A stretch of DNA of 42,012 nt from a virus. Both the position numbers and the translations under genes were made by a program. Below the pieces are notes generated by a model. That model did not search any database, was not told the DNA's origin, and saw nothing but the letters and a program-made list of their open reading frames with translations. Of this stretch, positions 14,992-32,087 are shown piece after piece (position 1 is the first letter of the stretch; each line of letters starts with the position of its first letter). The stretch covers positions 1 to 42,012 of IMG/VR virus record IMGVR_UViG_3300020207_001947; one strand, given 5' to 3'.

Positions 14992-15186
14992 TTAAAATGC
15001 GGAGCCGCTTTGTTGTAAGTGTTCGTAATTATTAATTTCATCTCTGAACGATTCGTCCTCTATATATTTGTTTACTGAACGATTTACTAACTTTTGAAGT
15101 GTGATGTTAGAATCAAATGAAATTCTTTTGAATTTTGAGTAAATATCTTTTATGATTTTTACCGTAGTAAGTTTTGTATCTGCCAT
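14992..15186 (-). CDS. Ribbon-helix-helix (CopG/Arc-like) small protein
   Basis: The protein has 64 residues. TTVKIIKDIYSKFKRISFD is a beta strand followed by helix A; NITLQKLVNRSVNKYIEDE is helix B with the turn before it. That is the order of a ribbon-helix-helix domain, which dimerises and inserts its paired strands into the major groove. A transcriptional regulator is plausible, but some phage proteins use the fold for other jobs. AAAGGA lies six bases before the ATG. A weak promoter-like TATATTTA lies at 15214-15207, without a good upstream TTTG. Confidence 0.65.
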   Translation of the reverse strand: MADTKLTTVKIIKDIYSKFKRISFDSNITLQKLVNRSVNKYIEDESFRDEINNYEHLQQSGSAF

Positions 15187-15232
15187 AACTATCCTTTAAT
15201 TTTATATAAATATATATAAATTTAAAAAACCA

Positions 15233-16090
15233 TCAATTCCAAGCAGAACAAAGTCCTCTTTCTTTAAATTCACACCACTTACAATGGTTACCTTTGTTAT
15301 ATGGAAATTCAGTTTGAATAATCTCACCACCCTCACCAAATACAGAATCTACAAAATCAGTAAAACCTTTCCATGCTTTGTTTATAGAAGGTGTACCATT
15401 AGCGGGTACAAACTTTGAAATTCGTGGTATGGGAAATTCGTAATCTTCGTTTATTTTTCTTTTTAGTATTTGATATTCTACTTTGATTTTATCTAATGGA
15501 ATATCATACTTTTGTGAATAGAACTTTTTGTAAAGTAACATCTGAGATGTTTTTACTTTATCGTTCTTTTGATATTTCGACCAACCTCTTGTTGAAGTTT
15601 TTAAATCAATGATAACATATTCTTGAGTTGTTTTATCTTTAAGAAGTACATCAATGAAACCAATAAAGTTTACACCTGGTTTTACCTCAGCGTTTAAAAC
15701 TTGTTCAATTGCCACAAGTTCGAATCCACTCTTAGAATATAGTTTATCTAATTTTTTTGTAAAGTAAGAAAGTATCAATTTACCATCTTGAAAGAACTCT
15801 TCAATTTCTTCTTGGGTACAGGGATATCTACCCTCCATCTTTTCTTTCTCTTTAGTGAAGTGTTCTACAAGTTGCTTGTATAAAAGGTTTTCAAGATTTA
15901 TTTGTAGTGCCTGTTTTTTAGATACATTATACATCACATCCAAAAAGTGTTGGATTGTTTCGTGCATTGCACTACCAAAAATTGTGTGGATATTTGCAGA
16001 TGATGTTCCTAATTTATCAATATAGTTTAACTTGTACTGTTCTTGACAAGTTGAATACATACCATATTGAGAATAACTTACTTTAGCCAT
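15233..16090 (-). CDS. PD-(D/E)XK nuclease with iron-sulfur cysteines (RecB/Cas4-like)
   Basis: The protein has 285 residues. H43 in SAMHETIQHFL, D147 in GFIDVLL, and D162-x-K164 in VIIDLKTS form the catalytic set of the RecB-type nuclease domain. Four cysteines, C15 in STCQEQY and C270, C273, C281 in CKWCEFKERGLC, match the split Fe-S cluster of Cas4/AddB nucleases. Such enzymes are single-strand exonucleases or process ends. The product may help recombination or host DNA breakdown. It has its own promoter (16108-16139), with a leader of about ten bases. Confidence 0.9.
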   Translation of the reverse strand: MAKVSYSQYGMYSTCQEQYKLNYIDKLGTSSANIHTIFGSAMHETIQHFLDVMYNVSKKQALQINLENLLYKQLVEHFTKEKEKMEGRYPCTQEEIEEFFQDGKLILSYFTKKLDKLYSKSGFELVAIEQVLNAEVKPGVNFIGFIDVLLKDKTTQEYVIIDLKTSTRGWSKYQKNDKVKTSQMLLYKKFYSQKYDIPLDKIKVEYQILKRKINEDYEFPIPRISKFVPANGTPSINKAWKGFTDFVDSVFGEGGEIIQTEFPYNKGNHCKWCEFKERGLCSAWN

Positions 16091-16107
16091 AACTTTAATT
16101 TACTATG

Positions 16108-16139
16108 TAAATATACGAAAAAATTATGAGAAATCCAAA
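16108..16139 (-). promoter_or_regulatory. Bacteroidota-type promoter before PD-(D/E)XK nuclease
   Basis: On the coding strand TTTG (16139-16136), a 20-base spacer and TATATTTA (16115-16108), flanked by TTTCG. This copy has A instead of G at the last base of the -7 box, the only one of eight to do so. It overlaps the 3' end of the radical SAM gene. Confidence 0.75.
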
Positions 16140-17365
16140 TTTTTTTCAATATTTATTTCATTAAAAAAATCTTCAAGATAACTTAATTCTTGAGGAGTTT
16201 TTGTTTTATTATATTGATTACCAAACTGCAATCTACTTCTAAAATCAATTAACACATGAGTAATTTTTGTTTTATCTTCTAACTTATTGTTTCTAAGATA
16301 ATTTATATATCTTTCTATATGTGTCTTTAATCTACTTCCATTTATTTCTCCCAATCCTCTTTCAAAGAAATCAGCCACTTTATAACAATTTGAAAAAGAA
16401 GTTACAGCAACTCTTTCCGAACCTACTGCATAATTAAACAAAATTTCATCATCAGATTTGATAAAACCTAAGTCATACATTTGATTTCTAAAATTATAAA
16501 AATCATAACAATTAAATATTGATGATGTATATTGAAAAACATTTCGAATATTATTATATTTCTTTTTGTTTTCTTCTAATCTTTTTAAATTATCACAAAA
16601 TTTTTGATGTGAAAATCCCGTTCTAACAAACTCACCCAATTCACCAAGCCCATCAACAGAAATAATAAAATTTGTAAATCTAAATTCTGATAGAAATCTA
16701 AATATATCTTCTTTTACAAAGTTTAATAAACTAAAATTTGTATTAATATGTAATTCTATTTTAGATTTATCTTCTATTGAATCTAAAAAACTATACATTT
16801 CTTTCATATAAAGTGGCTCACCACCTGCGAAATAAATGTGTTCTAAATTTTTTAAATTTTTATTTTGAATATTAAAGTTTGTTGATTTGTTAAAAGAATA
16901 TGGGTCATATGGTTTTTCCATATGGGGATGTTCTTTAAAAAACTTATCATCCTCTTCTGCCCACTTTGTAGATGATTCTGAACTGCAACTTCTACAAGAA
17001 AAATTACAATTAGTAGATGGTCTCAAATCTAATTTTAGAAAGTTTGGAGAAATTGTACCATCAGCTGATGTACTTTTTACATATTCATCAATGTAATCAC
17101 CATAATGTTCGTTCCATTGTTGACGATAACTATAACTCCCTTCCTTTTCCATATTGTAACAAATATCACAATATGAGGGGTTCTCACCATTTAACATTTT
17201 CTTTCGAACCTCTTTATAAGTTTCTGAATTGAATAACTCAACGACATCATCAGAAGATTCTTCAATATCTAAATACTTCTGAGAATAACAACAAACTTTT
17301 AATTTTTTATTGGGATAAGCATTGAGGTGAGAAAAGGGTAATATACAAAAGCTATCATTTTTCAT
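16124..17365 (-). CDS. Radical SAM protein with N-terminal cysteine (twitch-like) region
   Basis: The protein has 413 residues. STNCNFSCRSC (C120, C124, C127) is the CxxxCxxC that binds the 4Fe-4S cluster and S-adenosylmethionine, followed by FAGGEPLY (181-184 GGEP). Before it, C7, C25, C26 and a CDIC at 66-69 resemble an auxiliary-cluster SPASM/twitch region moved to the N-terminus, an arrangement known for a family of radical SAM proteins. The reaction is unknown; candidates are peptide, sugar or base modification. Its start shares one base with the gp62-like stop. The product at 21356-22567 has the same layout. Confidence 0.88.
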   Translation of the reverse strand: MKNDSFCILPFSHLNAYPNKKLKVCCYSQKYLDIEESSDDVVELFNSETYKEVRKKMLNGENPSYCDICYNMEKEGSYSYRQQWNEHYGDYIDEYVKSTSADGTISPNFLKLDLRPSTNCNFSCRSCSSESSTKWAEEDDKFFKEHPHMEKPYDPYSFNKSTNFNIQNKNLKNLEHIYFAGGEPLYMKEMYSFLDSIEDKSKIELHINTNFSLLNFVKEDIFRFLSEFRFTNFIISVDGLGELGEFVRTGFSHQKFCDNLKRLEENKKKYNNIRNVFQYTSSIFNCYDFYNFRNQMYDLGFIKSDDEILFNYAVGSERVAVTSFSNCYKVADFFERGLGEINGSRLKTHIERYINYLRNNKLEDKTKITHVLIDFRSRLQFGNQYNKTKTPQELSYLEDFFNEINIEKNLDFS

Positions 17366-17817
17366 TACACTTTTAATTTCAACTTAGTAATTTGTTTTTT
17401 ATCGATACCATACTTTTCACAAATATACTTTATGTTTTCTCTACCTTCTCTGGTTGAATAAAGTATTTCACAGTAATCTTCTGCCTCTTTTGAAGAACAC
17501 ATAAAATCTTGTTTAATAATATCGATTAAAAAAGATTCATATTTATTATCTTTTTTACCTTTTGTGTATTTTAAAAAATATCTTCCTTTTGGGATAATCC
17601 CAATAAGTGAAAGATAAAGTTGTTTAGGTTCTAATGTTTGTGTATATGGCTGTATTTCTGAAAGAACTTCTATCCAATCAGGATTCATAGATAAGAATCT
17701 GTGTATCATAAAATTACTCCAAGTTTTCTTATCACTTTCTTCAAGTTTATCCCAATACTTAGGGTCTTGAAATTGTGTAACCGCTTTTATGTGGTCAAAT
17801 AGTGTCTTACTTGCCAT
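17365..17817 (-). CDS. 62: Clamp-loader small subunit, T4 gp62-like
   Basis: The protein has 150 residues against 187 in T4. WSNFMIHRFLSMNPDWIEVLSEIQ and LYLSLIGIIPKGRYFLKYTK correspond in order and character to the FMVENALSQFPE and YLMAAVPRGKRYGKW parts of T4 gp62. The PKGR/PRGK segment is the clearest mark. In T4, one gp62 and four gp44 form the loader that opens the gp45 clamp around DNA. The gp44-like gene is 850 bases upstream, though three small genes lie between. A 1-base overlap links it to the radical SAM gene. Confidence 0.75.
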   Translation of the reverse strand: MASKTLFDHIKAVTQFQDPKYWDKLEESDKKTWSNFMIHRFLSMNPDWIEVLSEIQPYTQTLEPKQLYLSLIGIIPKGRYFLKYTKGKKDNKYESFLIDIIKQDFMCSSKEAEDYCEILYSTREGRENIKYICEKYGIDKKQITKLKLKV

Positions 17818-18070
17818 TATTTTTCAATTCGTTTGGTAGTAGTTCTTCACAAATTTCACCACAATCACCACATAGATATAATTCTACTGGTATGATTGCA
17901 TCATTTGGTGTACTTGTAATCATTTTTGAAATTTTTAAGAACTTTGTACCTGGTATAAATACAGTTCCACCACATTCTTGACAAGATATTTCTTTTGCCT
18001 GAGATAAATCTAATTTCGGTTTTTGTATTGGTGGATTATTATCACCACCCATTCCTACGATTTTTGCCAT
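17807..18070 (-). CDS. Zinc-ribbon protein
   Basis: The protein has 87 residues. ISCQECGGTVF (C30, C33) and YLCGDCGEICEE (C67, C70) form two CxxC knuckles 33 residues apart, an expected zinc ribbon. The N-terminal 25 residues are Gly/Pro-rich and probably disordered. Zinc ribbons of this size bind nucleic acid or partner proteins; in a replication-associated unit it could be a small transcription or replication factor, which is inference. It overlaps neighbours by 11 and 16 bases. A second in-frame ATG at 18052 would shorten it by six residues. Confidence 0.7.
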   Translation of the reverse strand: MAKIVGMGGDNNPPIQKPKLDLSQAKEISCQECGGTVFIPGTKFLKISKMITSTPNDAIIPVELYLCGDCGEICEELLPNELKNNGK

Positions 18071-18318
18071 CTTTTATTATTTTCTTCTTCGTTTAGTTTT
18101 CCTTGTTTTTTTATAGCCTCCCATTCATCCTCTGATATTTTTCTCCCATCAATTGCTGCGGATAAACCCGCAACTTGTTTAAGTTCATGAGAATTCATTG
18201 GCCTGGTTTTTGATTTTAGATACTCAGCTTTTGTATCTAACCATTCAAATAATTCATCTTCAGATAGTTTATCAAGTACATCACTTGATGGGTCTGGTTT
18301 CGTTGGGTCGTATTTCAT
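18055..18318 (-). CDS. Small acidic helical protein of unknown function
   Basis: The protein has 87 residues, highly charged, and without Cys. After an unstructured start (MKYDPTKPDPSSD), LSEDELFEWLDTKAEYLKSK and NSHELKQVAGLSAAID read as helices, ending with a charged tail. It is the first gene after the promoter at 18339-18370, with a leader of around fifteen bases. I do not recognise a family; operon position with the zinc ribbon and clamp-loader gene suggests early expression. Confidence 0.65.
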   Translation of the reverse strand: MKYDPTKPDPSSDVLDKLSEDELFEWLDTKAEYLKSKTRPMNSHELKQVAGLSAAIDGRKISEDEWEAIKKQGKLNEEENNKRWQKS

Positions 18319-18338
18319 ATCTTATAGTTTATTTGTTA

Positions 18339-18370
18339 CAAATATACGAAAAATATTTTAATTATCCAAG
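18339..18370 (-). promoter_or_regulatory. Bacteroidota-type promoter before the 18318-17365 gene group
   Basis: Coding strand CTTG (18370-18367), 20-base spacer, TATATTTG (18346-18339), flanked by TTTTTCG and TA. It lies in the 43-base gap after the thioredoxin gene and overlaps that gene's last codons. Confidence 0.85.
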
Positions 18371-18670
18371 TAAAATGTTTAAAACTTCTTGTACAATTTC
18401 AGTTTTATTACCATACTTACTAAAAATTTCTCTTCCATTTTTAAATGCAACTACCATTGGTATATTAGTTAAATCAGTAAGTTCTCTACTTTTAGGTGAA
18501 TTATCTGGATTTATAAATATAAATGGTATTTCTCTATTTAACTCAGAAACTCGTTCAAACTCTGGTTTAAGAATATCACAATTCCCACACCAATCAGTAC
18601 CAAACATTACCATTAGTTTAGGTTGTGTTCTTAATAATACATCAAGTGAATCTGTTTCTAATTTTATCAT
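18362..18670 (-). CDS. Thioredoxin-like protein (WCGNC)
   Basis: About 102 residues from ATG 18670, chosen because it forms the ATGA overlap with the clamp-loader stop; an upstream ATG at 18697 would add nine residues inside the previous gene. MVMFGTDWCGNCDILKPEF has the active site W27-C-G-N-C31, and TNIPMVVAFKNG supplies the cis-proline. It is a cytosolic dithiol oxidoreductase, perhaps supporting ribonucleotide reductase or radical SAM enzymes. It differs from the second thioredoxin (41742-42005, WCGPC), so they are not a recent duplication. Confidence 0.88.
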   Translation of the reverse strand: MIKLETDSLDVLLRTQPKLMVMFGTDWCGNCDILKPEFERVSELNREIPFIFINPDNSPKSRELTDLTNIPMVVAFKNGREIFSKYGNKTEIVQEVLNILLG

Positions 18671-19614
18671 AAAATTCCTACAATCTGAATGATACAACTC
18701 ATAAAAGTTATTTCTTTATCAACTACCAATGCATCTTTGTGTTGTGATTCTGAAAGAATAAGAATAATATTTGATGTATTGTTACCACCATAATCATCAA
18801 CCTTTTCATATAAGAATGTATATAGTTCTGTAAAATCAGAGATTCTTGCATCGGCAACTGCCTGTCTGATATTTTTCCATTTATTGGGTTTTGCATCTGA
18901 ACCTTTTAGAATCTCAACTACCTTTGATTTGATATCCGAATCAATTACAGAGGTTGTATCAAGTTTTAATTGTCCTTTGGATGAATTTAGTTGACAAGTA
19001 TTAATAATCTTTCTAATATCAGGATATGAACTATCAATGATAGGTACAAGGTCTGTTGGTTGGAAACTTACGCCTTCTTTACCCAAGATTTGTGAGATTT
19101 GTACTGCCACCTCTTTTTTGGATGGTGGTACAATTTGGAAAGTTTGACATCTACTTTGTATTGGGTCAATCACTTTCTCTACATAGTTACAAGTCAGAAT
19201 GAATCTACAATGTTTTGAGAATGTTTCCATCAAGTTTCTAAGGATTGCCTGTGCATTTGGTGTCATGTAATCGAACTCATCTAAGATGATTACTTTCATA
19301 TCCTTAAAACCAATAGTGGAAGCAAAACCCTTTACTTTGTTTCTAACTGTGTCAACATTGTTTTCATCTGATGCATTTATAATGATATAATCACAATTGA
19401 TTGAGTTAACAATTAACTTTGCTAAGGTTGTTTTACCTGTACCTGCTTTACCAAAAAATAAAAGATGAGGTACATCTCCACTTTGAAGATAATCACTTAC
19501 CTTTTGTTTAAGATGTTCGTTACCAACATATTCTGTTAGTTTTTTTGGTCTGTATTTCTCAACCCATAATGAGTTGTTTACTTCTTGGTTTGTTGTATCT
19601 TCGAAGAATGCCAT
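18667..19614 (-). CDS. 44: Clamp-loader large subunit, T4 gp44-like AAA+ ATPase
   Basis: The protein has 315 residues from ATG 19614. A longer reading frame begins at a TTG at 19635, but that triplet is part of the promoter -7 box, so it cannot be the start. LWVEKYRPKKLTEYVG is the RFC-box opening, FFGKAGTGKTTL (55-63) Walker A, VIILDEFDYM (109-115) Walker B, and IQSRCQTF (154-156) the SRC arginine finger. It loads the sliding clamp, using ATP, together with the gp62-like subunit. Length is close to T4 gp44 (319). Confidence 0.95.
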   Translation of the reverse strand: MAFFEDTTNQEVNNSLWVEKYRPKKLTEYVGNEHLKQKVSDYLQSGDVPHLLFFGKAGTGKTTLAKLIVNSINCDYIIINASDENNVDTVRNKVKGFASTIGFKDMKVIILDEFDYMTPNAQAILRNLMETFSKHCRFILTCNYVEKVIDPIQSRCQTFQIVPPSKKEVAVQISQILGKEGVSFQPTDLVPIIDSSYPDIRKIINTCQLNSSKGQLKLDTTSVIDSDIKSKVVEILKGSDAKPNKWKNIRQAVADARISDFTELYTFLYEKVDDYGGNNTSNIILILSESQHKDALVVDKEITFMSCIIQIVGIL

Positions 19615-19632
19615 ATCTATTTTTTGTTTATA

Positions 19633-19664
19633 CAAATATACGAAAATTATTTGGATTATACAAA
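19633..19664 (-). promoter_or_regulatory. Bacteroidota-type promoter before clamp-loader gene
   Basis: Coding strand TTTG (19664-19661), 20-base spacer, TATATTTG (19640-19633), then TA. It fills the 50-base gap between two genes. The predicted RNA start lies about 13 bases before ATG 19614. Confidence 0.85.
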
Positions 19665-20627
19665 TTATTTAAAAAATAATTTACACATAATATCGTAATT
19701 TTTTTTAATTTTACTATAATTTTTTTTATACATACTTTTAATATCACCATAAGATAACTCATTGTAAGTATTTACCATTTCTACAAAATTATTTATTTTT
19801 TTATCATCACCATAATAGAGAGAATCTGTATTAAATCCAAATTCTTTATTAGCTACCCAAAATCCCATCTCCTCAACTTCTTTTACAAAATTACAACCAC
19901 CATATATAATTGGAATAGATTGTGTTAAAAATGGAAGTAATGTTTTATCGGTTATAGGATTTAAAGGCGATTCAGATGTATCAGTTTCTATAACAAATGA
20001 AACAAATGATTTACAATATTCTTTAACCAACTCAGAAGTAGTTGGGTTTTTATTCATTTCATAATGATGTGGAAGTAACGATTCTCTTTTATAATCTCCC
20101 AGATACGTTTCGACTCTAATATATCTTATTATTCCATTAAATTTATCAAAATTTATTTTATTAAAAATTTTATCTCTTGTTTTATTGTATTTTCTAACTG
20201 ATAAAATTCCTTTATTTGATTTTGATAAATTTTTGAAATTACTTTCATTTATAAAATCAAAGTATCCAATAGTATGAGAGTCTGGCAAATAATCTCCCAA
20301 TTGCCATATTACAAGTTCTTTCATTGGATTTACATAGTCTTTATGTAAATTTGCATAATGTAATAAATTCACAATAGGCTCCATTCCATATTTTATTTTA
20401 TTAGAAACAGGCATTGATATTAATATCTCTTTATCAGGATATTCAGATATTATTTGTATTAAAGTATCAAGACCGTTAGAATATACTTCGTGGTTTGTAT
20501 AAAAGAAAAAATTAGTATTATTTTCAATTTCATTACGAATTTTTTCTTCACTACTAAACTCAGACCATTCAATTGGTTTTTTGTTTTTAAAGAATTCTAT
20601 TTGTGATTTAACTTTGGAACTAAACAT
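19665..20627 (-). CDS. GT-B glycosyltransferase-like protein (family 10-like C-terminus)
   Basis: The protein has 320 residues. The C-terminal half holds FVSFVIETDTSESPLNPITDKTLLPFLTQ (written here as a region near residues 213-240) followed by SIPIIYGGCNFVKEVEEMGF. The T-(D/E)-K-x-x-x-P-F...PIIYG layout is that of family 10 fucosyltransferases and of related phage and giant-virus transferase-like proteins. There is no signal peptide. It is very AT-rich. It stands apart from the main glycan cluster and next to the kinase-like gene (8-base overlap). The 26711-28036 product shows a related C-terminus. Confidence 0.55.
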   Translation of the reverse strand: MFSSKVKSQIEFFKNKKPIEWSEFSSEEKIRNEIENNTNFFFYTNHEVYSNGLDTLIQIISEYPDKEILISMPVSNKIKYGMEPIVNLLHYANLHKDYVNPMKELVIWQLGDYLPDSHTIGYFDFINESNFKNLSKSNKGILSVRKYNKTRDKIFNKINFDKFNGIIRYIRVETYLGDYKRESLLPHHYEMNKNPTTSELVKEYCKSFVSFVIETDTSESPLNPITDKTLLPFLTQSIPIIYGGCNFVKEVEEMGFWVANKEFGFNTDSLYYGDDKKINNFVEMVNTYNELSYGDIKSMYKKNYSKIKKNYDIMCKLFFK

Positions 20628-21159
20628 CTAATAGTTTTATTATTTGTTTTACTGTATTCTTACCAACTTTTATAGTGTGATAAGGAATGTTATTATCATC
20701 TAAAATCTTTTTACAATGTTTATCGATAGCAATTGATTCTTCTAAATTCTGATATCTCTCATCATCATTATGATTACCTTCCGCTCTTTCTAAAAGAACA
20801 TTAATACTATCGTATCTATTGTGCAAATCTACAATCATTTTGTTAAAATATTCACCATAAAACTCAGCAGGATATCCTGTGTTATACCAAGTTTTATAAA
20901 TTAATGAAAACATTATTGGTGAATCGATTACGATGTAATCAACCTTCCCATATGATTGTGCTATACCTCTATGTTGATTTGCAAGTACATAGAGTTGGTC
21001 TTTTATTGCTTCGTTGTTCTTATCCCACGCCAAGAGTTTAGGGAACTCATATGGGTTGTTACAACTAATGTGTTTCTTTTTTAATTTATATGTTACTCCT
21101 GCTGCTATGGAAGATTTTCCTATACCAGGTCCTCCAAATAAATTAATTAACTTACTCAC
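20620..21159 (-). CDS. P-loop NTPase / nucleotide kinase-like protein
   Basis: The protein has 179 residues. INLFGGPGIGKSSIAAGV (Walker A GGPGIGKSS, 9-17) opens the domain, VDYIVIDSP near residue 75 serves as Walker B, and LLERAEGNHNDDERYQNLEES matches the R-rich lid region of small kinases of the NadR and AAA_28 type. It might phosphorylate a nucleotide or small molecule or be an ATPase of unknown substrate. It overlaps the transferase gene downstream (8 bases) and a small secreted-protein gene upstream (8 bases). Confidence 0.8.
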   Translation of the reverse strand: MSKLINLFGGPGIGKSSIAAGVTYKLKKKHISCNNPYEFPKLLAWDKNNEAIKDQLYVLANQHRGIAQSYGKVDYIVIDSPIMFSLIYKTWYNTGYPAEFYGEYFNKMIVDLHNRYDSINVLLERAEGNHNDDERYQNLEESIAIDKHCKKILDDNNIPYHTIKVGKNTVKQIIKLLDV

Positions 21160-21337
21160 TTATGATATCTGTTATTTTTTGTTCACATTCTTTCCAATTT
21201 TTCAGTAACATCTCTGATGCCTTTTTGTACATATCCCTTTCTTCTTTCATATCATCGTACTTTTGTTTCCACTCACTTTCAGTTTGTGAAAAACCAGAGA
21301 ACAAAATAACAATTAGTAATAAAACTAAATTTCTCAT
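21152..21337 (-). CDS. Small signal-peptide protein with coiled coil
   Basis: The protein has 61 residues. MRNLVLLLIVILFSGFSQ is a clear signal peptide or membrane anchor without a lipobox Cys. The remaining 42 residues (SEWKQKYDDMKEERDMYKKA and on) form a charged coiled coil with one Cys. Size and layout recall small inner-membrane spanin or superinfection proteins, but no homology can be shown by eye. Its presence next to a cytosolic kinase-like gene gives no functional hint. Confidence 0.6.
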   Translation of the reverse strand: MRNLVLLLIVILFSGFSQTESEWKQKYDDMKEERDMYKKASEMLLKNWKECEQKITDIISE

Positions 21338-21355
21338 ATTTTAATTATTTTTAAT

Positions 21356-22567
21356 TTATAATAAATATTTATTTGAATTAGCAGTTTCTTCTACAATCTC
21401 TTCAAAATCAACTTCGATAGATTTTATATATTCAATATCCGAAGATTTATTAAAGTGTTTATTGCTAATGTGATGAAAATTATGATTTACAAATGGCAAA
21501 TCATGTATCTTTTTTAACTCATGTAAAAAATCTTCAAAAGAACTGTTGTTTTCATCAAACACTTGAAGTTCTTTCATTTCTTCATAACTATATGTCCACC
21601 AATTTGCAATTTGTCTATAATTAATACCAATCTTATTTTTAAAATTGGAAAATATATCAGTAATTAAATTATAAAATTGTTTCATTTCTTTGTAATTATT
21701 CTTACTAACAACCATTGAACATACAATATCATCTACACTATCTAATGTTGATATAAATTTAAGGTTAGAAATTAATTTATCCCAATCACCATTTAATCGA
21801 GTAACATTTTCATAAGTTTCTTTATTACCAGCATCAATACTAATTTCTATAAAATTAATGTAAGGAGCCGCATTTAAAGAATTCCACATTTTTTCATTAA
21901 GTATTACACCATTTGTAATAATCTGTAATGATTCTAAATTAGGATATTTAGATTTATCAAAATTTTGTAGGTATTTTCTGTATATAGTAGAATAAAACGG
22001 GTCTCCGCTTCCTGTAACTAATATTCTTTTTAAGTTAGAACCGTAGTTATCTTCTATTGAATTTAATATATGGAGTTTATTTTTGTATTGAACCGAATTA
22101 ACATCATCGTTTGTAACAAGAGATAATCGACATGATGGACATTTTAAATTACAACTTCTATCAAAACCAAAAAGAATTTCTTCTGGTGGTTTACTGAAGT
22201 TTTTAATATCTTCAATACTTTTAATATCATACTTCTTATTAAAATCTTCTTTTTTAAGAACCTTTTCAGGTATGATATTAGAGTTTTTTAGTTGGTTTAG
22301 TTTAGGACAAAGTTCATGATTGCATAAGGAATAAGAACCATCATATACAGCTTCTCGTATCCTTCTTGCAGTATTTGAAGTCCAGTTTCGTTGTACATCA
22401 TCTGTTTGATTAAATAGTCTATCACTTTGTATTCCATCTTCGTTTACTTTTATATTTGGTGGGCCCCACGCAGGACAACATACAAACTGTCCATGAGTGT
22501 GTACATCTGTGTAACTAAAAGGTTCTTCACAAACATATTCATTTAGTATGTTAGTTTCGTTGTTCAA
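21356..22567 (-). CDS. Radical SAM protein with N-terminal cysteine region
   Basis: The protein has 403 residues from a TTG start at 22567, the only usable start since an in-frame stop lies ten bases upstream and no ATG occurs near the beginning. SCNLKCPSC (C139, C143, C146) is the radical SAM cluster site, and VTGSGDPFY replaces the usual GGEP. Before it lie C13, FVCCPAW (C30, C31) and LCNHELC (C82, C87), a possible auxiliary cluster. The start lies within the end of a 40-codon gene, so translation is probably coupled. Target unknown. Confidence 0.85.
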   Translation of the reverse strand: MNNETNILNEYVCEEPFSYTDVHTHGQFVCCPAWGPPNIKVNEDGIQSDRLFNQTDDVQRNWTSNTARRIREAVYDGSYSLCNHELCPKLNQLKNSNIIPEKVLKKEDFNKKYDIKSIEDIKNFSKPPEEILFGFDRSCNLKCPSCRLSLVTNDDVNSVQYKNKLHILNSIEDNYGSNLKRILVTGSGDPFYSTIYRKYLQNFDKSKYPNLESLQIITNGVILNEKMWNSLNAAPYINFIEISIDAGNKETYENVTRLNGDWDKLISNLKFISTLDSVDDIVCSMVVSKNNYKEMKQFYNLITDIFSNFKNKIGINYRQIANWWTYSYEEMKELQVFDENNSSFEDFLHELKKIHDLPFVNHNFHHISNKHFNKSSDIEYIKSIEVDFEEIVEETANSNKYLL

Positions 22568-22673
22568 TTTTATTGATTAACAAATTAATTTTTTCACAAA
22601 ATTTTGGAAACTTATTTCTTGTAGCTAATTGTTTCCAAATGTAATACAAAATAGTTAATATAATTTTTTTCAT
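22551..22673 (-). CDS. Small protein, 40 codons, overlapping the radical SAM start
   Basis: A complete ATG-to-TAA frame of 40 codons (begins MKKIILTILYYIWKQLATR). The N-terminus is basic and hydrophobic, so it may insert in or sit on a membrane; the rest is basic with one Cys. It fills the gap between the terminator after the receptor gene and the TTG-start radical SAM gene, which begins in its last codons. That arrangement would explain how an otherwise weak TTG start is reached by ribosomes. No family recognised. Confidence 0.5.
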   Translation of the reverse strand: MKKIILTILYYIWKQLATRNKFPKFCEKINLLINKIEQRN

Positions 22674-22686
22674 AACAAAAAGGATT

Positions 22687-22715
22687 ATGGGAGAGTTGTA
22701 GAACATCCCTCCCAT
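22687..22715 (-). terminator. Probable Rho-independent terminator after the TonB-dependent receptor gene
   Basis: On the coding strand ATGGGAG (22715-22709) and CTCCCAT (22693-22687) form a 7-base stem, with an inner GTT/AAC pair (22704-22695), followed after four bases by a run of five T. It begins about 20 bases after the receptor stop codon. This would end the receptor transcript. Confidence 0.6.
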
Positions 22716-22735
22716 GATTATTCCTTCTATAAATA

Positions 22736-25444
22736 TTAGAATCTGTATTTAAGTGAAGCGTTCCAAGTACGGCCGAATCCGAACCATACTGAGTTTCTTA
22801 CATCGATTCCATTCCAAGTTTCTGAACCTGCAGAAGCGTGGATATTTGAGTTTGATTCTGCAATATAAACAGTATCAAATAAGTTGTTGATGTTCACTCT
22901 AAATGAAGCATCGTTTCCGAATAAGTTAAATCTAAGTGTTGAACCTAAATCAACTAATCCATAAGATGGTAACTTTAACGCACCATCGTTATCAGGTTGT
23001 GTAAACGCTGAATCAGTAATTGAATAATCTGCAAATAAGTTATCTACAAATCTATATCCTAAATCAACATTTAGTTTATTACCTAATTTATAATCAGCTT
23101 CTAAGTAAGATACGAATTGTGCAGCGTCACCAACTTTTGCATCTTTAAGGTAAAGTGTACCTGTACCGATTGATTGTTGGTTATCATCAAATAACTCTGC
23201 ATCAAAATCTTTAGTATATCTCCAATCACCGATTGATAACATACCTTTTAATCTTAAATTAGAAGAAGGGTCATAAGTTGCTTCAACTTCGATACCATTG
23301 TGTACTACATCGATATCTCTGAATTGAGCAAATCCATCAACACCTTGTTGGTTAGATAAACTTCTTGTAACAAATCTATTACCCCATACAGTTGAGTATA
23401 AGTTAACATTTGCTTTGAAGTTGTTACCAATGAAACCATATCCAAATTCAACTGATTTGATTTCTTCGTTTTGTAAATCAGGATTTACATTGTTAGCGAA
23501 GTTAGGGAATACTGCATCAAAGTTAGGTTGTCTTGAGATGAAACCAGCATTGAAGAAAACATTTTGTCTATCATCAATGTTGTAGTTTGCACCACCTTTA
23601 ACATACCCACCACCTACATTTTCTGTATCTGATTCAGGATTACCTGGTTGGTCAAAGTAATCGATTCTTTGGAATGATTGGTTAGATAAACCTGCTTGTA
23701 ATACTGCAGATAAGGTAGAGTTGTTATATTCAACTAAACCATTTACACCTTGCCAACCTACTTTACCAATGTTATAGTAATCGATTTTTGGTCCTTTAAT
23801 ACCCGTATCTTTGAATGGAGATGCTTCAACTAAAGTATTGATGATTTGTCCTGCTGAGTTCTTATTACCAGTTGAGTAATAACCATCAAATCCTAATAAA
23901 TCATTTAATACTCTATAATGATATCCTTTATAATTTCTTAAATCGATACCAATTGAAGTTTTCCAATTCCCACTTTCATATTCTAAGTTAGAGATTGCTC
24001 CAACCCAGTCATGAGAGTTCATAGAAGCTCTTCTGATTAAACCAGCTCTGTTTACACCATCTTCTCTAAATCCATTAGATGCGATTAACTGACCACCGAA
24101 TGGTAAATCACCACTATAACCATCTGTATTAGCTTGGTTATATGCAACGATTGCATCAAAGTCAATAAATCCATTAGCATCTCTTGAACCTCTACCATCT
24201 TCTAAATAATGTTCCGTAAGGTCTTTCCTGAAAGGTAGGATATCAGTTTCCGAGTTGTAGTAATTTCTACCTCTTGGTCCTGTTCCTCCACCTCTACCTG
24301 CTGAACCATATAATGATGTTGCAAGTTTAAGGTTATCAGAAATATCAAAATCCCAGTTTAAAGTTGCCAATGGTTTGTTGTAGAAGTTTCTTCTTAGAGA
24401 ATATTCTTCTCCATTTAAAATACCACCATTGGTATTCCATCTTCTATCAATTCCTTCTGTACCAAAGTTTTGGTAATCTCTAATAGATACCCAAACATCT
24501 CTTTGGTGGTGCCATTGTCCTGCACCTAATAAAGAAAAGTTTACAGAATGTTTAGAATCTTCAGGTGCATATCCTAATGCAAAGAAGTAAGTGTAACCCT
24601 CACCACTTGTATTATAGATATATCCATCACCTGCCCATTTAGATAGCAAAACAGATGAAGCCCATCCATTCTCACTAAGACCAGTAGAGTGAGTTACAGT
24701 AGTTTTTGTGTAACCATCGTTACCAATAACTTGTTGTACTGAACTACCACTTTTAGCCTCAGCGGCTTTTGTAAAGATTGAAACTGTACCACCAACTGAA
24801 GGTACTGCTAATCTCGAAGCTCCTAATCCTCTTTGTAATTGGATTCCACTTGCAACATCCGTAAGACCTTGCCAGTTTGACCAATAAACCCATCCGTTTT
24901 CCATGTCATTAACTGGCTGACCGTTAATTAGGAAAGAAGTGTTTCTTTGGTCGAATCCTCTTAGAGAGATTCTCGAATCACCATATCCACCACCTTGTTT
25001 GGTAGCATAGACACCTGGTGTCTTATTCATAATTTCAGGAAACTCTTGGTTACCAACTTTTAATGAAATTTCAGCAGGTGAAATCGTAGATACAGCAACA
25101 GGTGTTTCTCTTACCTTTGCAATATCAATCACACCAGAAGTTACAACTACTTCACCAAGAACATTGATATCAGGTTGAAGTGATACCAATAATCCATTCT
25201 GAGCAGATACTTCTGAAGCTGAATATCCAATAAAAGAAACAACCAAAGTGTCTCCTTGTGATGCATCAATTGTGAATGTTCCATCAAATCCTGCTACAAC
25301 ACCTGTTTGTGTTCCTTTAATAAGGACGGTAGCACCTGGTAGAACATCATTAGTTTCAGCATCAACCACTTTCCCACTAATCTGTGCAAAAGCATTTGTT
25401 AATGACATCATTGCCATCAATCCAACTAATAATAGTTTTCTCAT
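22736..25444 (-). CDS. TonB-dependent outer-membrane receptor
   Basis: The protein has 902 residues. MRKLLLVGLMAMMSLTNAFA is a signal peptide. Residues 22-90 (ISGKVVDAETNDVLPGATV...GFDGTFTID) are a carboxypeptidase-regulatory-like domain, typical of Bacteroidota receptors. GEVVVTSG is a possible TonB-contact box, about 100-230 is the plug (NKTPGVYATKQGGG, SLRGFDQRNTSFLINGQPV), and the rest is the 22-strand barrel ending in KYRF. Such receptors import glycans, vitamins or siderophores using TonB energy. This is a complete gene in a phage array, with a terminator after it. Substrate unknown. Confidence 0.93.
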   Translation of the reverse strand: MRKLLLVGLMAMMSLTNAFAQISGKVVDAETNDVLPGATVLIKGTQTGVVAGFDGTFTIDASQGDTLVVSFIGYSASEVSAQNGLLVSLQPDINVLGEVVVTSGVIDIAKVRETPVAVSTISPAEISLKVGNQEFPEIMNKTPGVYATKQGGGYGDSRISLRGFDQRNTSFLINGQPVNDMENGWVYWSNWQGLTDVASGIQLQRGLGASRLAVPSVGGTVSIFTKAAEAKSGSSVQQVIGNDGYTKTTVTHSTGLSENGWASSVLLSKWAGDGYIYNTSGEGYTYFFALGYAPEDSKHSVNFSLLGAGQWHHQRDVWVSIRDYQNFGTEGIDRRWNTNGGILNGEEYSLRRNFYNKPLATLNWDFDISDNLKLATSLYGSAGRGGGTGPRGRNYYNSETDILPFRKDLTEHYLEDGRGSRDANGFIDFDAIVAYNQANTDGYSGDLPFGGQLIASNGFREDGVNRAGLIRRASMNSHDWVGAISNLEYESGNWKTSIGIDLRNYKGYHYRVLNDLLGFDGYYSTGNKNSAGQIINTLVEASPFKDTGIKGPKIDYYNIGKVGWQGVNGLVEYNNSTLSAVLQAGLSNQSFQRIDYFDQPGNPESDTENVGGGYVKGGANYNIDDRQNVFFNAGFISRQPNFDAVFPNFANNVNPDLQNEEIKSVEFGYGFIGNNFKANVNLYSTVWGNRFVTRSLSNQQGVDGFAQFRDIDVVHNGIEVEATYDPSSNLRLKGMLSIGDWRYTKDFDAELFDDNQQSIGTGTLYLKDAKVGDAAQFVSYLEADYKLGNKLNVDLGYRFVDNLFADYSITDSAFTQPDNDGALKLPSYGLVDLGSTLRFNLFGNDASFRVNINNLFDTVYIAESNSNIHASAGSETWNGIDVRNSVWFGFGRTWNASLKYRF

Positions 25445-25482
25445 AATAATTAATTTTCTATTTATTTAAATTAAACATAACC

Positions 25483-25500
25483 TAATCACCGAAGTGATTA
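25483..25500 (-). promoter_or_regulatory. UUCG-tetraloop hairpin between GMP reductase-like and receptor genes
   Basis: TAATCAC-TTCG-GTGATTA on the coding strand is a perfect 7-base stem with the extra-stable C(UUCG)G loop. No strong T-run follows, so it may be a weak terminator, an RNA stabiliser or a leader element for the receptor. TAATCAC occurs again at 25513-25507, giving an alternative pairing. Confidence 0.55.
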
Positions 25501-25510
25501 TTTTCTGTGA

Positions 25511-26581
25511 TTATAAAAGATGTGGTTTTGCTTCGTTAATACCCGAATTAGTAACAACAACATATGGAGGTTTGAAATCTTCTAAATTACTTGCACCACC
25601 ATAAGATAATGCAGATTTCACTCCATCAAGTAATCCATTCACTATGAACTTAACTCCGCCCTTGTAGGGAATGGCAGTGGATTCACCTTCCACATTTCTG
25701 GTCTGTTGACCATTTGCTACTTTCGTTTCTAACGAGGCCGAACCTCTATATCTCTTATAAAGACCTTTTTGAGTTTCAACAATCTGACCTGGTGCTTCAT
25801 CAGTACCAGCGATTAATGAACCCAACATAACAGAACTCGCTCCAATTGCCAGAGCCTTTGAAATATCACCACTTGAACGAATACCTCCATCAGCCATAAC
25901 CGGAGTTTTCGCAACTGATACAATATCTTCCAAACAACTTACATTCGGTACACCGAATCCTGTTTTAACTCTTGTTGTACAAAGAGAACCACCACCGATT
26001 CCAACTCTCAACCCATCTACTCCCCAAGATTCCAATTCTTGAGCTGCTTCTTTCGTAGCGATGTTACCTGCGATGATATCTACTTTGTCATCAAGATTTT
26101 CTTTACACCACTCAATCATCTTACGAACATTTTCGTGGTGTCCATGAGCAACATCAATCAATAGAATATTACAGCCCGATTCTACCAATGATTTTGCTCT
26201 TTGTTTATCACTTTCACTTACTCCGATGGCTGCCATAATAGGGACATGAGAAATTTCAGAGTGCCATGTATCTAACATAACTCCCCAATCTTCAAAAGGT
26301 CCACCAAACCCTTCACCGTAAATTTTGTGATATAACTCTTTAACTATTTTTGATTGTTCTTCTATTGAATTAAAACGATGGATACAACCTACTCCACCGA
26401 GTTTAAACATTTTATATGCCATATCTAAACCACAAACCGTATCCATTGGTGAGGCTACGATTGGGTTTATTAGACCGTATCTACGAGATACTAATGTATT
26501 TAAATTGATTTTTGTACGAGATGGGATGTTAGAGTATTGTGGTACTAACTGAATATCATCGTATGTAAGGGAATAATTCAT
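25511..26581 (-). CDS. IMP dehydrogenase/GMP reductase family enzyme, GMP reductase-like
   Basis: The protein has 356 residues. [10 protein letters not shown] is the N-terminal barrel motif, [13 protein letters not shown] carries the Asp for nucleotide binding, [17 protein letters not shown] has the catalytic Cys (C201), and [12 protein letters not shown] plus PYKGGVKF are the phosphate and flap segments. No CBS pair is inserted, and the flap (RGSAS to PYKG) is short, as in GMP reductase (GMP to IMP plus ammonia) rather than IMP dehydrogenase. Yet PYKG resembles the latter, so the choice is not certain. It could shift purines from G to A. AAAGG precedes the ATG. Confidence 0.88.
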
Positions 26582-26609
26582 GAACCTTTATTTGTGTTTG
26601 TAGTGTAGA

Positions 26610-26668
26610 AAGTTACCCTGTCCATCGTGGCAGTTCCCCATAAGAAGTAGGGGTTATTTTGGTAACTT
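26610..26668 (-). ncRNA. Candidate structured leader RNA (three-way junction) upstream of GMP reductase-like gene
   Basis: Coding strand: outer stem AAGTTACC (26668-26661) with GGTAACTT (26617-26610), 8 perfect pairs; then AAAATAA; hairpin CCCC (26653-26650)/GGGG (26639-26636) with a 10-base loop; AA; hairpin CTGCCA (26633-26628)/TGG-A-CAG (26624-26618) with a 3-base loop. No T-run follows. The ATG at 26581 is 28 bases after the last pair. It could be a riboswitch-like cis regulator; it does not match the purine riboswitch junction as I know it. Confidence 0.5.
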
Positions 26669-26710
26669 GAGAAATTTATTAAATAAGTTTCTTCCATCTT
26701 TGAATAAGTA

Positions 26711-28036
26711 TTAATTTAAAATATAATCTCTTAAAAATTGTGTATTTTTATAAATCCAATCTAATATGATAGATTTATTTTCTTTTATTTTTGATAAGTT
26801 CTCTGTATAAATTCTTTTCGCATCTTCTAAAGAAATCTTTTCAAGTGCTTCAATTAAATAATCCATTTGTTTAATTGGGTCATCTTCTTCTAAAAATAAT
26901 GGATTTATTCCAAGTTCTTTAATGAAAGTATGTCCCCCAAGTTTTTCAAATTCTTTGTAGAATCTATTAGCACCAACTGATACAAATAACTTTTCAAAAA
27001 AGATTCCATGATAAGTTTTTTCTGACCAGAACCCATATAACTTATCCCATATAATATGTGTTTCTGCAACTATCTCAATATAACTTTGGTTATATTCTTC
27101 CTTTCTAATATTTTCAGAAGCATATTCAAATCTTTTATCTAAACCAAGTGGGTCTTGAATTTTTTTATAGTAAGAAAGTGGTTTGTAAAAATCTAAATTC
27201 CAAAACTTTTTAATCTGTGGTTTTAGTGAAGCTGCACCATCTGTAAATAAATTGTTTTCTTTTATTGCTTGATAGTATTCATGTAAAAACCATTTGTTCA
27301 TTGTAAGATATCCTTTATCTATCAGACCACTTTCTATACACTTATTTATTAAATATAATCTATGATATCTTGGTTTACCACCTAGCATACCAAAGACATA
27401 AGGTCTATCTTCTTTTGGATTTACCAAAGTATCTAACCAATCATAATAAACTTCTTGTCCATTTTCAATTTCTTGTCTATTGTTTGGTGATACTTCATAC
27501 GAAAGAATATCATAAATGTAATTCCAAAGAGAATAAAAAGTATCTACTTTAGTATTCTTACATTTTTCAAATAACGGATAATCTGAGAATCTTGTGAAAT
27601 CAAAATCATAATCTAAACTACAAGGTACATAATGTCTATTCTCATAATCAAGTGGTTCGAAATATGCATTAGCTAAAATTACTTTTACATTTTTTTTCTT
27701 GTAAACTTCTTCTAACTTTTTTACATATGCCAATCCAAATGTATGATAGAATCCTATAAAACAACCATCAAATATCCACCTATCCATTAAAATAATAGAA
27801 TCTTGTGGTGGATTAAAAAGAATATTATCTTTGGATTCTTCAAACCACTCTAAATTATTTTCTTGTACATTCCAATCAACTTGATGTTCGCTTGGGTCTA
27901 TGATTTTAATTTTGTGATTTGAACCATTATAATCAAATTCATATATAGATGTCCAATCTTCCTTTGATATAAGTTTAAATTTACTTTTACCAAAAATAGA
28001 ATAAATCTGAGATTCTCTTGCTATTATTGTTTTCAT
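26711..28036 (-). CDS. Glycosyltransferase-like phage protein
   Basis: The protein has 441 residues. GMLGGKPRYHRLYLINKCIE and IDKGYLTMNKW near 215-248 followed by WSEKTYHGIFFEKLFVSVGA and FEKLGGHTFIKELG near 340-375 fit the layout (R.HR..L ... EKT..P....PF ... L..LGF.TF) of a large family of transferase-like proteins in marine phages and giant viruses. Charged residues are spread evenly and there is no signal peptide. It lies two bases after the methyltransferase-like gene and is followed by the structured leader region. Acceptor unknown. Confidence 0.5.
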   Translation of the reverse strand: MKTIIARESQIYSIFGKSKFKLISKEDWTSIYEFDYNGSNHKIKIIDPSEHQVDWNVQENNLEWFEESKDNILFNPPQDSIILMDRWIFDGCFIGFYHTFGLAYVKKLEEVYKKKNVKVILANAYFEPLDYENRHYVPCSLDYDFDFTRFSDYPLFEKCKNTKVDTFYSLWNYIYDILSYEVSPNNRQEIENGQEVYYDWLDTLVNPKEDRPYVFGMLGGKPRYHRLYLINKCIESGLIDKGYLTMNKWFLHEYYQAIKENNLFTDGAASLKPQIKKFWNLDFYKPLSYYKKIQDPLGLDKRFEYASENIRKEEYNQSYIEIVAETHIIWDKLYGFWSEKTYHGIFFEKLFVSVGANRFYKEFEKLGGHTFIKELGINPLFLEEDDPIKQMDYLIEALEKISLEDAKRIYTENLSKIKENKSIILDWIYKNTQFLRDYILN

Positions 28037-28038
28037 AT

Positions 28039-29673
28039 CTACTTTTTATGGAATACAAATATTGGTTCAAACTTATAAACCTTACCATCATATTCAACAG
28101 CATTCTTTATACCACTCTTAGATGGGTCTAATCCAACCATTCTGGTCATCAACATTTTGAGTTTACCTTTATACTCACATCCCAATTCTTTTAAGATATC
28201 GATTGAATCTTGTTCAAGTGGATAATAAGTGTTCTCACCAATCTTAATATCAGCAATATTCCAAAGAATATATCTATCGTTCTTAAGATACTCATAAATC
28301 GTTGTTAGTGTAGGTTTTAAGAAGTTATCTCTCCAATCTTCATACTCACCATAGGCTTTGAAAGATTGTTTCTCATCTTGTGAGTATTGTTCTCTATTAA
28401 AGTAAGGAGGTGAAGTAAATGAAATATCTAATTTACCTTTATACTTTTGAAACTTTGGATTGTTTGAGATTAACTCTGAACCATCTTGGAATAACTCATA
28501 AGTATTACCTTGTTTTTCTACATCAAAGAATGTAGTAAGTTTGTCTGAAAAATCATCTACACAATTATCATTGTAAAACTTAGCCATATACTCATAACGA
28601 GAAATACCTTCTTCATCTAAGAAGTTATCAGGATTAGGGTCTGTACCAACATAATGTATTTTCTTACGAGAACTCATTGCTCCTAAGATTCTACCACCCC
28701 AACCACTTGATGAATCGTAAATATGTAGTGGTTCATCTGTATCAATGTGTTTGGTATAGTTTTCGTAAATCCACTTTGCAGTTAGTGCAGGGAAGTTTAC
28801 TGCAGGTTGACCACAACTCAATCTGAATACTTGAATAATCTTTGGAAAGATACCAACTTCTTTTTCGTACCAACGAATCTGATAAAGATACTTTTGGGTT
28901 GTACCTGCTTCAGAAGTCCATTCTGATTCTATTCTATCTATATTTGATAACTGAGTATCATTTAGATATCCATCATCTTTTAGCTCTTGAACTTGTTCTG
29001 ATGTTAAATATAAATTACCATGACCGATATACTCTTCATTGAAAGTACCATAGTTTGAAATAGTTCTTGTATTTACTTTTGATATCCAAATATCAATACC
29101 AGAATATTTACCATTGAATACCTTTCCATCATGAACATCTTTGATAAAATCAATAGCACCTTGTCCATTCCAAAAAGGATTCTCATCTTTCTTATCTACA
29201 ATTGACCTTGACCATGAATACATAGAATCTCGTTTAACTGCTCGTTTCATAATACGAACAAACTTATCTTCCATATTAGGGTCAGAGAAATGGTCATAAA
29301 TAGATAAACCACCCTCTGCAGATTTACCAGTTGATATCTTAGTTTTTAACATTGTAGGAAAAAACTGATTTACAACTGATGCATCTTTGTTAAAGTTTTT
29401 TATTAATCCTAATGATTCAGAATCACCACTTGTATCTTTTTCCCAATAATTTGCAGGATTAGACTTAAGTTTCTTAAAGTTTTTGATAATACCACTTTCG
29501 TTTTTGCCAATAACAGGTGGAGTTCCTCGTTCATCCCATTGCTCTGTAACTTCTTTACGCAGAATTCTAGCCCAAGACACAAACTCATCATCAGTCATTT
29601 GTAACAACTGATGATAAGTAGTGTTGGATTTAAATTCAGAAAATCTGCTTTTTTCGTAGAAGTATTTTGTCAT
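28039..29673 (-). CDS. SPPY-type DNA methyltransferase-like protein (long form)
   Basis: The protein has 544 residues. HIYDSSSGWGGRILGAM (about 318-332) is motif I for S-adenosylmethionine, YVGTDPNPDN motif II, and ISFTSPPYFNREQYS (418-431) motif IV of amino-methyltransferases of the N4-cytosine/N6-adenine type. A 300-residue N-terminal region of unknown function precedes the catalytic part. The 39998-41236 product has the same order of motifs (GWGDR, TSPPYF). It starts on the last base of the clamp stop, so it is coupled to sliding clamp expression. DNA modification or an anti-restriction job is likely. Confidence 0.75.
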   Translation of the reverse strand: MTKYFYEKSRFSEFKSNTTYHQLLQMTDDEFVSWARILRKEVTEQWDERGTPPVIGKNESGIIKNFKKLKSNPANYWEKDTSGDSESLGLIKNFNKDASVVNQFFPTMLKTKISTGKSAEGGLSIYDHFSDPNMEDKFVRIMKRAVKRDSMYSWSRSIVDKKDENPFWNGQGAIDFIKDVHDGKVFNGKYSGIDIWISKVNTRTISNYGTFNEEYIGHGNLYLTSEQVQELKDDGYLNDTQLSNIDRIESEWTSEAGTTQKYLYQIRWYEKEVGIFPKIIQVFRLSCGQPAVNFPALTAKWIYENYTKHIDTDEPLHIYDSSSGWGGRILGAMSSRKKIHYVGTDPNPDNFLDEEGISRYEYMAKFYNDNCVDDFSDKLTTFFDVEKQGNTYELFQDGSELISNNPKFQKYKGKLDISFTSPPYFNREQYSQDEKQSFKAYGEYEDWRDNFLKPTLTTIYEYLKNDRYILWNIADIKIGENTYYPLEQDSIDILKELGCEYKGKLKMLMTRMVGLDPSKSGIKNAVEYDGKVYKFEPIFVFHKK

Positions 29674-30398
29674 TAACTCTGGATTTCTACAAGGTAATAA
29701 TTTGATTCGTAGTTATCGATTTCAAAATAGATATGTGCTAAACCTGAAGATGAAATCTTTAAAGTAGCATCTGTTGCCTCTTTATTTGCAACTAAGATTT
29801 CTTTTAAGAAGTTTGCTGAGAATGAAATTGGTTCTACTTTATCTTTTGAACAAGTACAATCAACATCGATGTTAATTCTATTTGTATTGATATTAGAATA
29901 TCCTAAGATAATTTGACCAGAACCATTTTTACCATCACCACAAGTGAATGTAAAGTTATTCTCATCTGCCAAAGCACCTTTTGCTTTGATGAACTTTGTA
30001 ATGAAGTTTGAATCTAATTTGATTTCAGTATCAAACTCTGGTAATTGTTTTAAATCAGGTACATTAGGGATAACTGATAAATCAGCCAACATATAATTTA
30101 CTGATGTAGAACCATCTTTGAATTTCAAAGAAACTGGTTTGCCATCAATATCATTGATTGAGAAATCAACATCATTTCCTAATACTGATAACATTTTTGT
30201 AAGTTTGGTTGTATCATACACACCGAATGATGCATCTGATGAATCAAACTCTTTCATAGTAACACTACCCAAAACAGATTTATCATCTGAAATGAATGAT
30301 GTTGTAAGAGAACCTTCTTTAGATTCCCATTTTACAGATTCTACTAAACCTGCAAGATTGTACTTCGATACGAAGCGATTTAATGATTGTTTTTCCAT
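29673..30398 (-). CDS. 45: Sliding clamp, T4 gp45-like
   Basis: The protein has 241 residues, near T4 gp45 (228). It is acidic and strand-rich with the repeated beta-alpha-beta layout of processivity clamps. FGVYDTTKLTKMLSVLGNDVDFSI, FSANFLKEILVANKEATDATLKIS and the C-terminal SNYYLVEIQS resemble, in order, the gp45 segments. In T4 the trimeric ring holds the polymerase on DNA and also activates late transcription. Own promoter at 30429-30460 with a leader of about 25 bases. Downstream lies a methyltransferase-like gene, coupled by one base. Confidence 0.85.
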   Translation of the reverse strand: MEKQSLNRFVSKYNLAGLVESVKWESKEGSLTTSFISDDKSVLGSVTMKEFDSSDASFGVYDTTKLTKMLSVLGNDVDFSINDIDGKPVSLKFKDGSTSVNYMLADLSVIPNVPDLKQLPEFDTEIKLDSNFITKFIKAKGALADENNFTFTCGDGKNGSGQIILGYSNINTNRINIDVDCTCSKDKVEPISFSANFLKEILVANKEATDATLKISSSGLAHIYFEIDNYESNYYLVEIQS

Positions 30399-30428
30399 GT
30401 TTTTACTTAATTATAATTTATATTTGTA

Positions 30429-30460
30429 CAAATATACGAAATTATTTTCATATACACAAG
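30429..30460 (-). promoter_or_regulatory. Bacteroidota-type promoter before sliding clamp gene
   Basis: Coding strand CTTG (30460-30457), 20-base spacer, TATATTTG (30436-30429), flanked by TTTCG and TA. The predicted RNA starts about 25 bases before ATG 30398. Confidence 0.87.
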
Positions 30461-30464
30461 TCTT

Positions 30465-32087
<1,623 letters not shown>

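Follow-up and report, generated by a model that had tools for sequence, protein, structure and literature searches.

The window analysed here is a complete IMG/VR record, a linear fragment of 42,012 bases in which nearly all long genes lie on the minus strand. It is a fragment of a T4-like phage genome, with genes for a T4-type DNA polymerase B (phrog_262), a clamp loader (phrog_168), and an exonuclease (phrog_69), and it also encodes a sliding-clamp-like protein, GroEL, GroES, and many glycosyltransferases; the GroES and GroEL genes, at 10497-10805 and 30465-32084, are ~20 kb apart. The T4 major capsid gene gp23 is absent from the window but present in receptor-bearing records of 276, 252, 191, 113, and 89 kb. 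At 22736-25444 on the minus strand, a single unbroken open reading frame encodes a TonB-dependent receptor (TBDR) of 902 residues. The features to which we refer are:

22736-25444, minus strand: TBDR, 902 aa, with signal peptide (~1-20), CarboxypepD_reg-like domain (22-101), putative TonB box (~96-105), plug (~106-232), and barrel (233-902)
25445-25510, minus strand: 5' leader of the receptor gene, with hairpin TAATCAC-TTCG-GTGATTA, then GGTTATG..TTTAATTTAAAT; no early promoter
25511-26581, minus strand: GMP reductase/IMP dehydrogenase-like gene (IMPDH domain), directly upstream of the receptor and beside it in ~17 relatives
21356-22567, minus strand: radical SAM gene, directly downstream of the receptor
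20620-21159, minus strand: P-loop kinase (AAA_28, phrog_2107 'thymidylate kinase'), found in the vicinity of the receptor across most T4-like relatives
18667-19635, minus strand: clamp loader, a phage replication gene that proves the context
29673-30398, minus strand: sliding-clamp-like gene with an early promoter ahead at ~30441
37464-39980, minus strand: T4-type family B DNA polymerase, phrog_262
41715, 39998, 34731, 32133, 30441, 19645, 18351, and 16120, minus strand: copies of the early promoter TTTG-N18-TTTTCGTATATTTG

Three Pfam domains score above their gathering cut-offs in the receptor, i.e., CarbopepD_reg_2 (residues 22-101), Plug (111-190; PF07715, 48.3 bits, cut-off 23.9), and the TonB barrel (362-855; PF00593, 38.9 bits, cut-off 27). 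By eye, a signal peptide spans residues ~1-20; the putative TonB box LGEVVVTSG lies between the regulatory domain and the plug and is moderately conserved, and the C-terminus is KYRF with a final F. An earlier sequence-only reading had proposed a complete receptor with signal peptide, regulatory-like domain, plug, and barrel in a phage genome, flanked by a GMP reductase-like gene upstream and a radical SAM gene downstream; the open reading frame, the Pfam matches, and the surrounding phage genes bear this out. Because the AlphaFold2 model of the receptor is of moderate quality (mean pLDDT 68.5, plug poorly predicted), we took only the strand order from it, counting 22 predicted barrel strands. 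The top Foldseek matches of the model are PqqU, FhuA, Fiu, and FecA (E 1e-33 to TBDRs). Transporters of the FhuA/FecA/PqqU type have in common with the phage receptor the plug and the 22-strand barrel, and they have a TonB box, for which the receptor offers a putative counterpart, but at 12-15% identity their ligands are not transferable. By sequence, solved structures gave only distant SusC-like and plug/regulatory-domain matches. The SusC/RagA family also has the CarboxypepD_reg-like domain and plug; membership was nevertheless rejected, as the receptor scores 88.2 with NCBIfam TIGR04056, far below the cut-off of 368.25, and no SusD was recognised in the neighbour clusters. Identity with the vitamin B12 receptor BtuB was likewise rejected (TIGR01779, 37.3 against a cut-off of 599.7). 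The matching PHROGs family is annotated as function unknown.

The motif TTTG-N18-TTTTCGTATATTTG, eight copies of which lie on the gene strand of the window, stands ahead of several operons. We take its arrangement to be that of a Bacteroidota-type -33/-7 promoter, and because of this resemblance the early genes of the phage are probably read by the host RNA polymerase. That the early promoter is real and that no copy precedes the receptor, as had been claimed, holds for the window; in the relatives L040 and L058, however, close matches do precede the receptor. The proposed terminator fared less well: the scan gave none directly behind the gene, and although an inverted repeat (ATGGGAGGG...CTCCCAT) is visible there by eye, the claim is weak. 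In the leader, the order of hairpin, GTTAY, and AT-rich block before the ATG is kept in related phages (including L008, L012, L016, L026, and L059) while the stem sequences differ, and cellular genes are without this pattern. Folding scores of the leaders are modest (z -0.6 to -2.3), and the leader region of the window receptor has no Rfam match. In the L012 and L016 leaders, AGTAAC in a hairpin loop could pair with a downstream GTTACT in a pseudoknot-like manner.

Scanning IMG/VR, we found 452 stretches that encode relatives of the receptor, of which the best 80 (67-100% identity) were retained. About two-thirds of these 80 loci have replication genes of the window type around the receptor, and some receptor contigs also hold genes for phage major capsid, polymerase, and clamp loader. 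The receptor is an accessory gene, for it is missing from four polymerase relatives, partial records that measure 213, 148, 143, and 131 kb. In INPHARED, no close copy was found in a cultured phage, the best match (34%) being in unannotated gut contigs. A complete copy of one host import receptor is carried by many large marine Bacteroidota viruses. In the open-access literature that we searched, there is no description of a phage-encoded TBDR; absence from this part of the literature is not proof of novelty.

All viral copies fall in one slow-evolving TBDR family shared with Bacteroidota and Balneolota, and they lie within the tree of the cellular Bacteroidota orthologue. This orthologue is single-copy in all nine genomes checked, and its usual locus reads DUF3108-M23 peptidase-pgi-receptor, adjoining recA in Schleiferiaceae. 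Of 120 Flavobacteriaceae genomes, three contain a member of the close clade, and many more contain relatives that are further removed (40-50% identity). The orthologue shares domains and conserved loops with the phage copy, at no more than 76% full-length identity, but it is chromosomal, lies beside pgi or recA, and is mostly not adjacent to an S1/P1 nuclease. Viral and cellular receptors interleave, with 10-14 label changes in large FastTree trees. Because possibly viral contigs in metagenome-assembled genomes (MAGs) inflate this count, the one to use is that for rows with verified context, in which supported branches force at least six switches between virus and cell. A single viral origin is rejected (AU p 5e-32), and the window receptor sits in an all-viral clade. 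We conclude that the receptor has been exchanged repeatedly between phages and Bacteroidota/Balneolota. Three short MAG contigs carry close relatives of the receptor (L106, L083, and L084 in genome_contigs); L106 groups as sister to the viral L082 and is possibly viral DNA that was assigned to a MAG in binning. In the pairs L007/L059 and L010/L008, receptor and flanks differ in divergence (e.g., dS 0.52 versus 2.12), which points to recombination of the receptor among phages.

Pairwise dN/dS of phage receptors is mostly 0.1-0.25, somewhat higher than in the neighbouring replication genes; where dS approaches zero, the ratio of a pair carries no information. The phage receptor is kept under purifying selection. 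Mean pairwise identity among phage receptors is 0.75 in the extracellular loops and 0.74 in the strands, compared with 0.66 and 0.68 among cellular receptors, while in outgroup receptors the loops are the more variable part (0.45 versus 0.54). Only one position, in the plug, is conserved in cells yet freely variable in phages. Conserved loops together with purifying selection favour kept transport or ligand handling over a diversified decoy, and a decoy arising through loop diversification is unsupported, there being no excess loop variation in phage copies. A positive charge on the loops, which would hint at binding of nucleic acid, was looked for and not found, the net charge of the extracellular loops being about -20. 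Being host-derived and kept by phages under purifying selection, the receptor is a candidate auxiliary metabolic gene.

Misassembly, host contamination, and neutral cargo are a known long-standing risk for metagenomic viral contigs, and some of the 'cellular' MAG contigs in the tree, such as L106, are possibly viral. The sequence-only reading had itself named breaks at the junctions and identity with a host genome as dangers and a codon and GC comparison as a check. No break was seen: two independent contigs from two other metagenomes (L003 and L004) align gap-free over 15151-26977 and 15462-31883, at 99.75% and 99.86%, and cover both receptor junctions. The receptor is not a copy identical to that of a host, the closest cellular copies being ~76% identical. 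Its GC3 of 0.205 agrees with that of the phage genes (0.13-0.24), and its total GC is higher because of codon positions 1 and 2. The spanning contigs, together with the occurrence of the receptor in gp23-bearing records of 113-276 kb, rule out misassembly or contamination of the window. With ~450 viral contigs that hold the receptor, a copy in the 89 kb cassette record, and purifying selection on the gene, we find it hardly credible that the receptor is an artefact or a passenger.

Clustering of the neighbouring genes revealed recurrent phrog_2107 kinase, GMP reductase/IMPDH, class I ribonucleotide reductase, and thioredoxin. A nucleotide-supply gene lies within 4 kb of the receptor in 45 of 54 dereplicated viral loci and an exported nuclease in 16 of 54. 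In 16 of the 80 viral loci (the best 80 of 452), an S1/P1 nuclease is encoded downstream of the receptor. Because these 80 loci had been picked by the receptor, we searched IMG/VR anew from the nuclease side: among 39 viral S1/P1 loci, 28 have the receptor immediately upstream, mostly with gaps of 49-480 bp, three are cut by a contig edge, and eight are without it. The S1/P1 protein matches PF02265 (E 2.6e-65) and by eye has a signal peptide; its likely zinc ligands, W17, H22, D58, H73, H123, D127, H133, H162, and D166, which we presume from P1 nuclease, are invariant. Ten loci have an exported Endonuclease_NS directly upstream of the receptor (L049, L053, L067, L069, L078, L282, L285, L286, L288, and L292), and eight have class I ribonucleotide reductase just upstream (L283, L285, L287, L288, L043, L047, L080, and L082). 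In several phages, these genes form a cassette of Endonuclease_NS, receptor, S1/P1, a small membrane protein, and a thymidylate-kinase-like gene, all pointing the same way and either overlapping or separated by short gaps; in some cases, the cassette stands directly after ribonucleotide reductase. The small membrane protein (L026:3687-3956, L069:5277-5501, L285:8729-8956, and relatives) has 72-89 residues, three predicted helices, and the motif TxQTQxTKxYNLSLLNxVG, and its gene overlaps or abuts that for S1/P1; a SemiSWEET/PnuC-like identity was rejected because no Pfam, PDB-sequence, or fold match was found. L005, with a receptor 90% identical to that of the window, and L008 have the small membrane protein and S1/P1 where the window has the radical SAM gene. 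No S1/P1 gene was found in the window (42 kb) or in its relatives of 276 and 252 kb. Across phage records, S1/P1 is present in 6 of 38 receptor-positive and 0 of 20 receptor-negative ones, a contrast that is suggestive only. The linkage of the phage receptor to exported nucleases is new here and was absent from the sequence-only reading.

Two other kinds of neighbourhood were observed. In L078 (510-14000), L049, and L064, the receptor lies amid genes for QueC, a QueE-like radical SAM protein, and GTP cyclohydrolase I, and these 7-deazaguanine-type genes suggest modified phage DNA. In a 252 kb phage, a run of exported proteins of unknown function, which have signal peptides and one of which is lipoprotein-like, is encoded near the receptor (L033:544-6187 and L058:1026-6265, minus strand); one of them is 72% related to the truncated open reading frame at 2-430 of the window.

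Exported nucleases also occur beside cellular copies. In two contigs of Ca. Arcticimaribacter (L101 and L103), S1/P1 is encoded 45-49 bp downstream of the receptor, and in nine further loci an exported Exo_endo_phos nuclease lies beside it, usually followed by a pair consisting of a barrel and a DUF5689 protein. Where Flavobacteriaceae have both genes, the S1/P1 nuclease mostly lies apart from the receptor. In Riemerella, natural transformation requires RA0C_RS04915/RA0C_RS04920, which encode a CarboxypepD_reg barrel and a DUF5689/DUF5017 protein (PMC8459023). On the basis of domains and gene order, the pair beside the cellular receptor apparently corresponds to the Riemerella pair. Like the receptor, the Riemerella barrel has a CarboxypepD_reg-like domain and belongs to the outer membrane of Flavobacteriaceae. 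The neighbour barrel is, however, only ~21-27% similar to the receptor, and the phage receptor differs from the Riemerella pair in that a plug domain can be recognised in it and a DUF5689 partner is missing. Of 45 matches in Flagellimonas, the neighbour barrel is the sole additional one whose alignment covers most of the receptor (24%, residues 22-753).

The position of the receptor in a row with secreted nucleases and nucleotide genes suggests import of nucleic-acid building blocks into the host. Our working hypothesis, to which we give about an even chance, is that the receptor is a TonB-dependent importer of nucleic-acid-derived nutrients that feed phage replication. T4-like and other phages of marine Bacteroidota took it repeatedly from one conserved host family; during infection, it would be exported and placed in the outer membrane, where, with energy from the host TonB, it would import oligonucleotides, nucleotides, or nucleosides. 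In relatives with the cassette, the exported Endonuclease_NS would cut extracellular nucleic acid, the periplasmic S1/P1 would degrade the imported pieces to nucleosides and phosphate, the three-helix membrane protein might aid passage across the inner membrane, and the kinase together with ribonucleotide reductase or GMP reductase would convert the products to dNTPs. In the window phage, a nuclease may lie elsewhere in the unsequenced part of the genome or come from the host. That marine Bacteroidota phages encode a dedicated pathway for scavenging extracellular nucleic acid, comprising exported endonuclease, TBDR, S1/P1, membrane protein, kinase, and reductase, is the more tentative claim, and we hold it with somewhat less than even confidence. 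Nucleic-acid import is spoken against by the negative loop charge, which is unlike that expected for a polyanion channel, by the lack of a nuclease beside the window receptor and of S1/P1 in the relatives of 276 and 252 kb, and by the distance between nuclease and receptor in most Flavobacteriaceae that have the two genes. Moreover, nucleotide genes abound in the early regions of T4-like phages, so that such neighbours alone are weak evidence. The sequence-only reading had offered that a phage copy keeps nutrient uptake going or that it replaces or masks the receptor used by other phages. The former is the better of these two ideas, given the conserved loops and plug, the low dN/dS, and the adjoining nucleotide genes and exported nucleases.

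It is also conceivable, although we judge it unlikely, that the receptor is kept for transport of another ligand (iron or another metal, a vitamin-like cofactor, an oligosaccharide, or a peptide) and that its neighbours merely reflect the early region. Metal chelates are the cargo of most known TBDRs, receptors for siderophores, PQQ, and copper come closest in fold, a metal is required by class I ribonucleotide reductase and zinc by S1/P1, and the usual cellular neighbour pgi carries no hint of nucleic acid; yet this leaves the viral S1/P1 beside the receptor and the exported nucleases beside cellular copies unexplained. Vitamin B12 in particular is an unlikely ligand, given the TonB-B12 score of 37 against 599.7 and a neighbouring reductase of class I. 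A distinctly improbable explanation is superinfection exclusion, in which the phage version of a receptor that other phages use would supplant the host copy or crowd the host surface, and the exported nucleases, which could serve this end, would destroy the DNA of incoming phages. TBDRs are common phage receptors and are blocked by phages (FhuA with Llp is among the Foldseek matches). However, phage loops are as conserved as strands, the one cell-conserved position that phages vary lies in the plug, the nucleotide kinase and reductase of the cassette do not fit, and exclusion by nucleases would need no receptor; the earlier idea of replacing or masking a receptor gains no support from loop variation or from the neighbours. 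Finally, the phage might boost competence-like uptake to capture DNA for recombination, acquiring genes rather than nutrients; in favour of this, the pair near the cellular receptor is of a kind that Riemerella needs for natural transformation. We consider this very improbable because S1/P1 and Endonuclease_NS would destroy the DNA, and ComEC, DprA, and ComF were not noticed among the annotated neighbours.

Cyanophage pstS is a phage auxiliary metabolic gene, a host nutrient-uptake gene that lytic phages acquired more than once. The phage receptor, too, is a host uptake gene that was taken repeatedly and kept by phages; unlike pstS, it is a TonB-dependent outer-membrane receptor and in some phages is part of a nuclease-kinase-reductase cassette. 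Outer-membrane receptors are known as the doors of phages, whereas here one is phage cargo, repeatedly and under selection. If importing nucleic-acid pieces is indeed its function, it would represent a long-missing outer-membrane importer for such pieces in Bacteroidota, TonB-dependent and testable with a defined gene set. If our reading of the cassette is correct, infected cells would be net importers of nucleic acid, feeding on the DNA and RNA of lysed neighbours to build phage genomes, which would directly link viral lysis to viral production in the sea.
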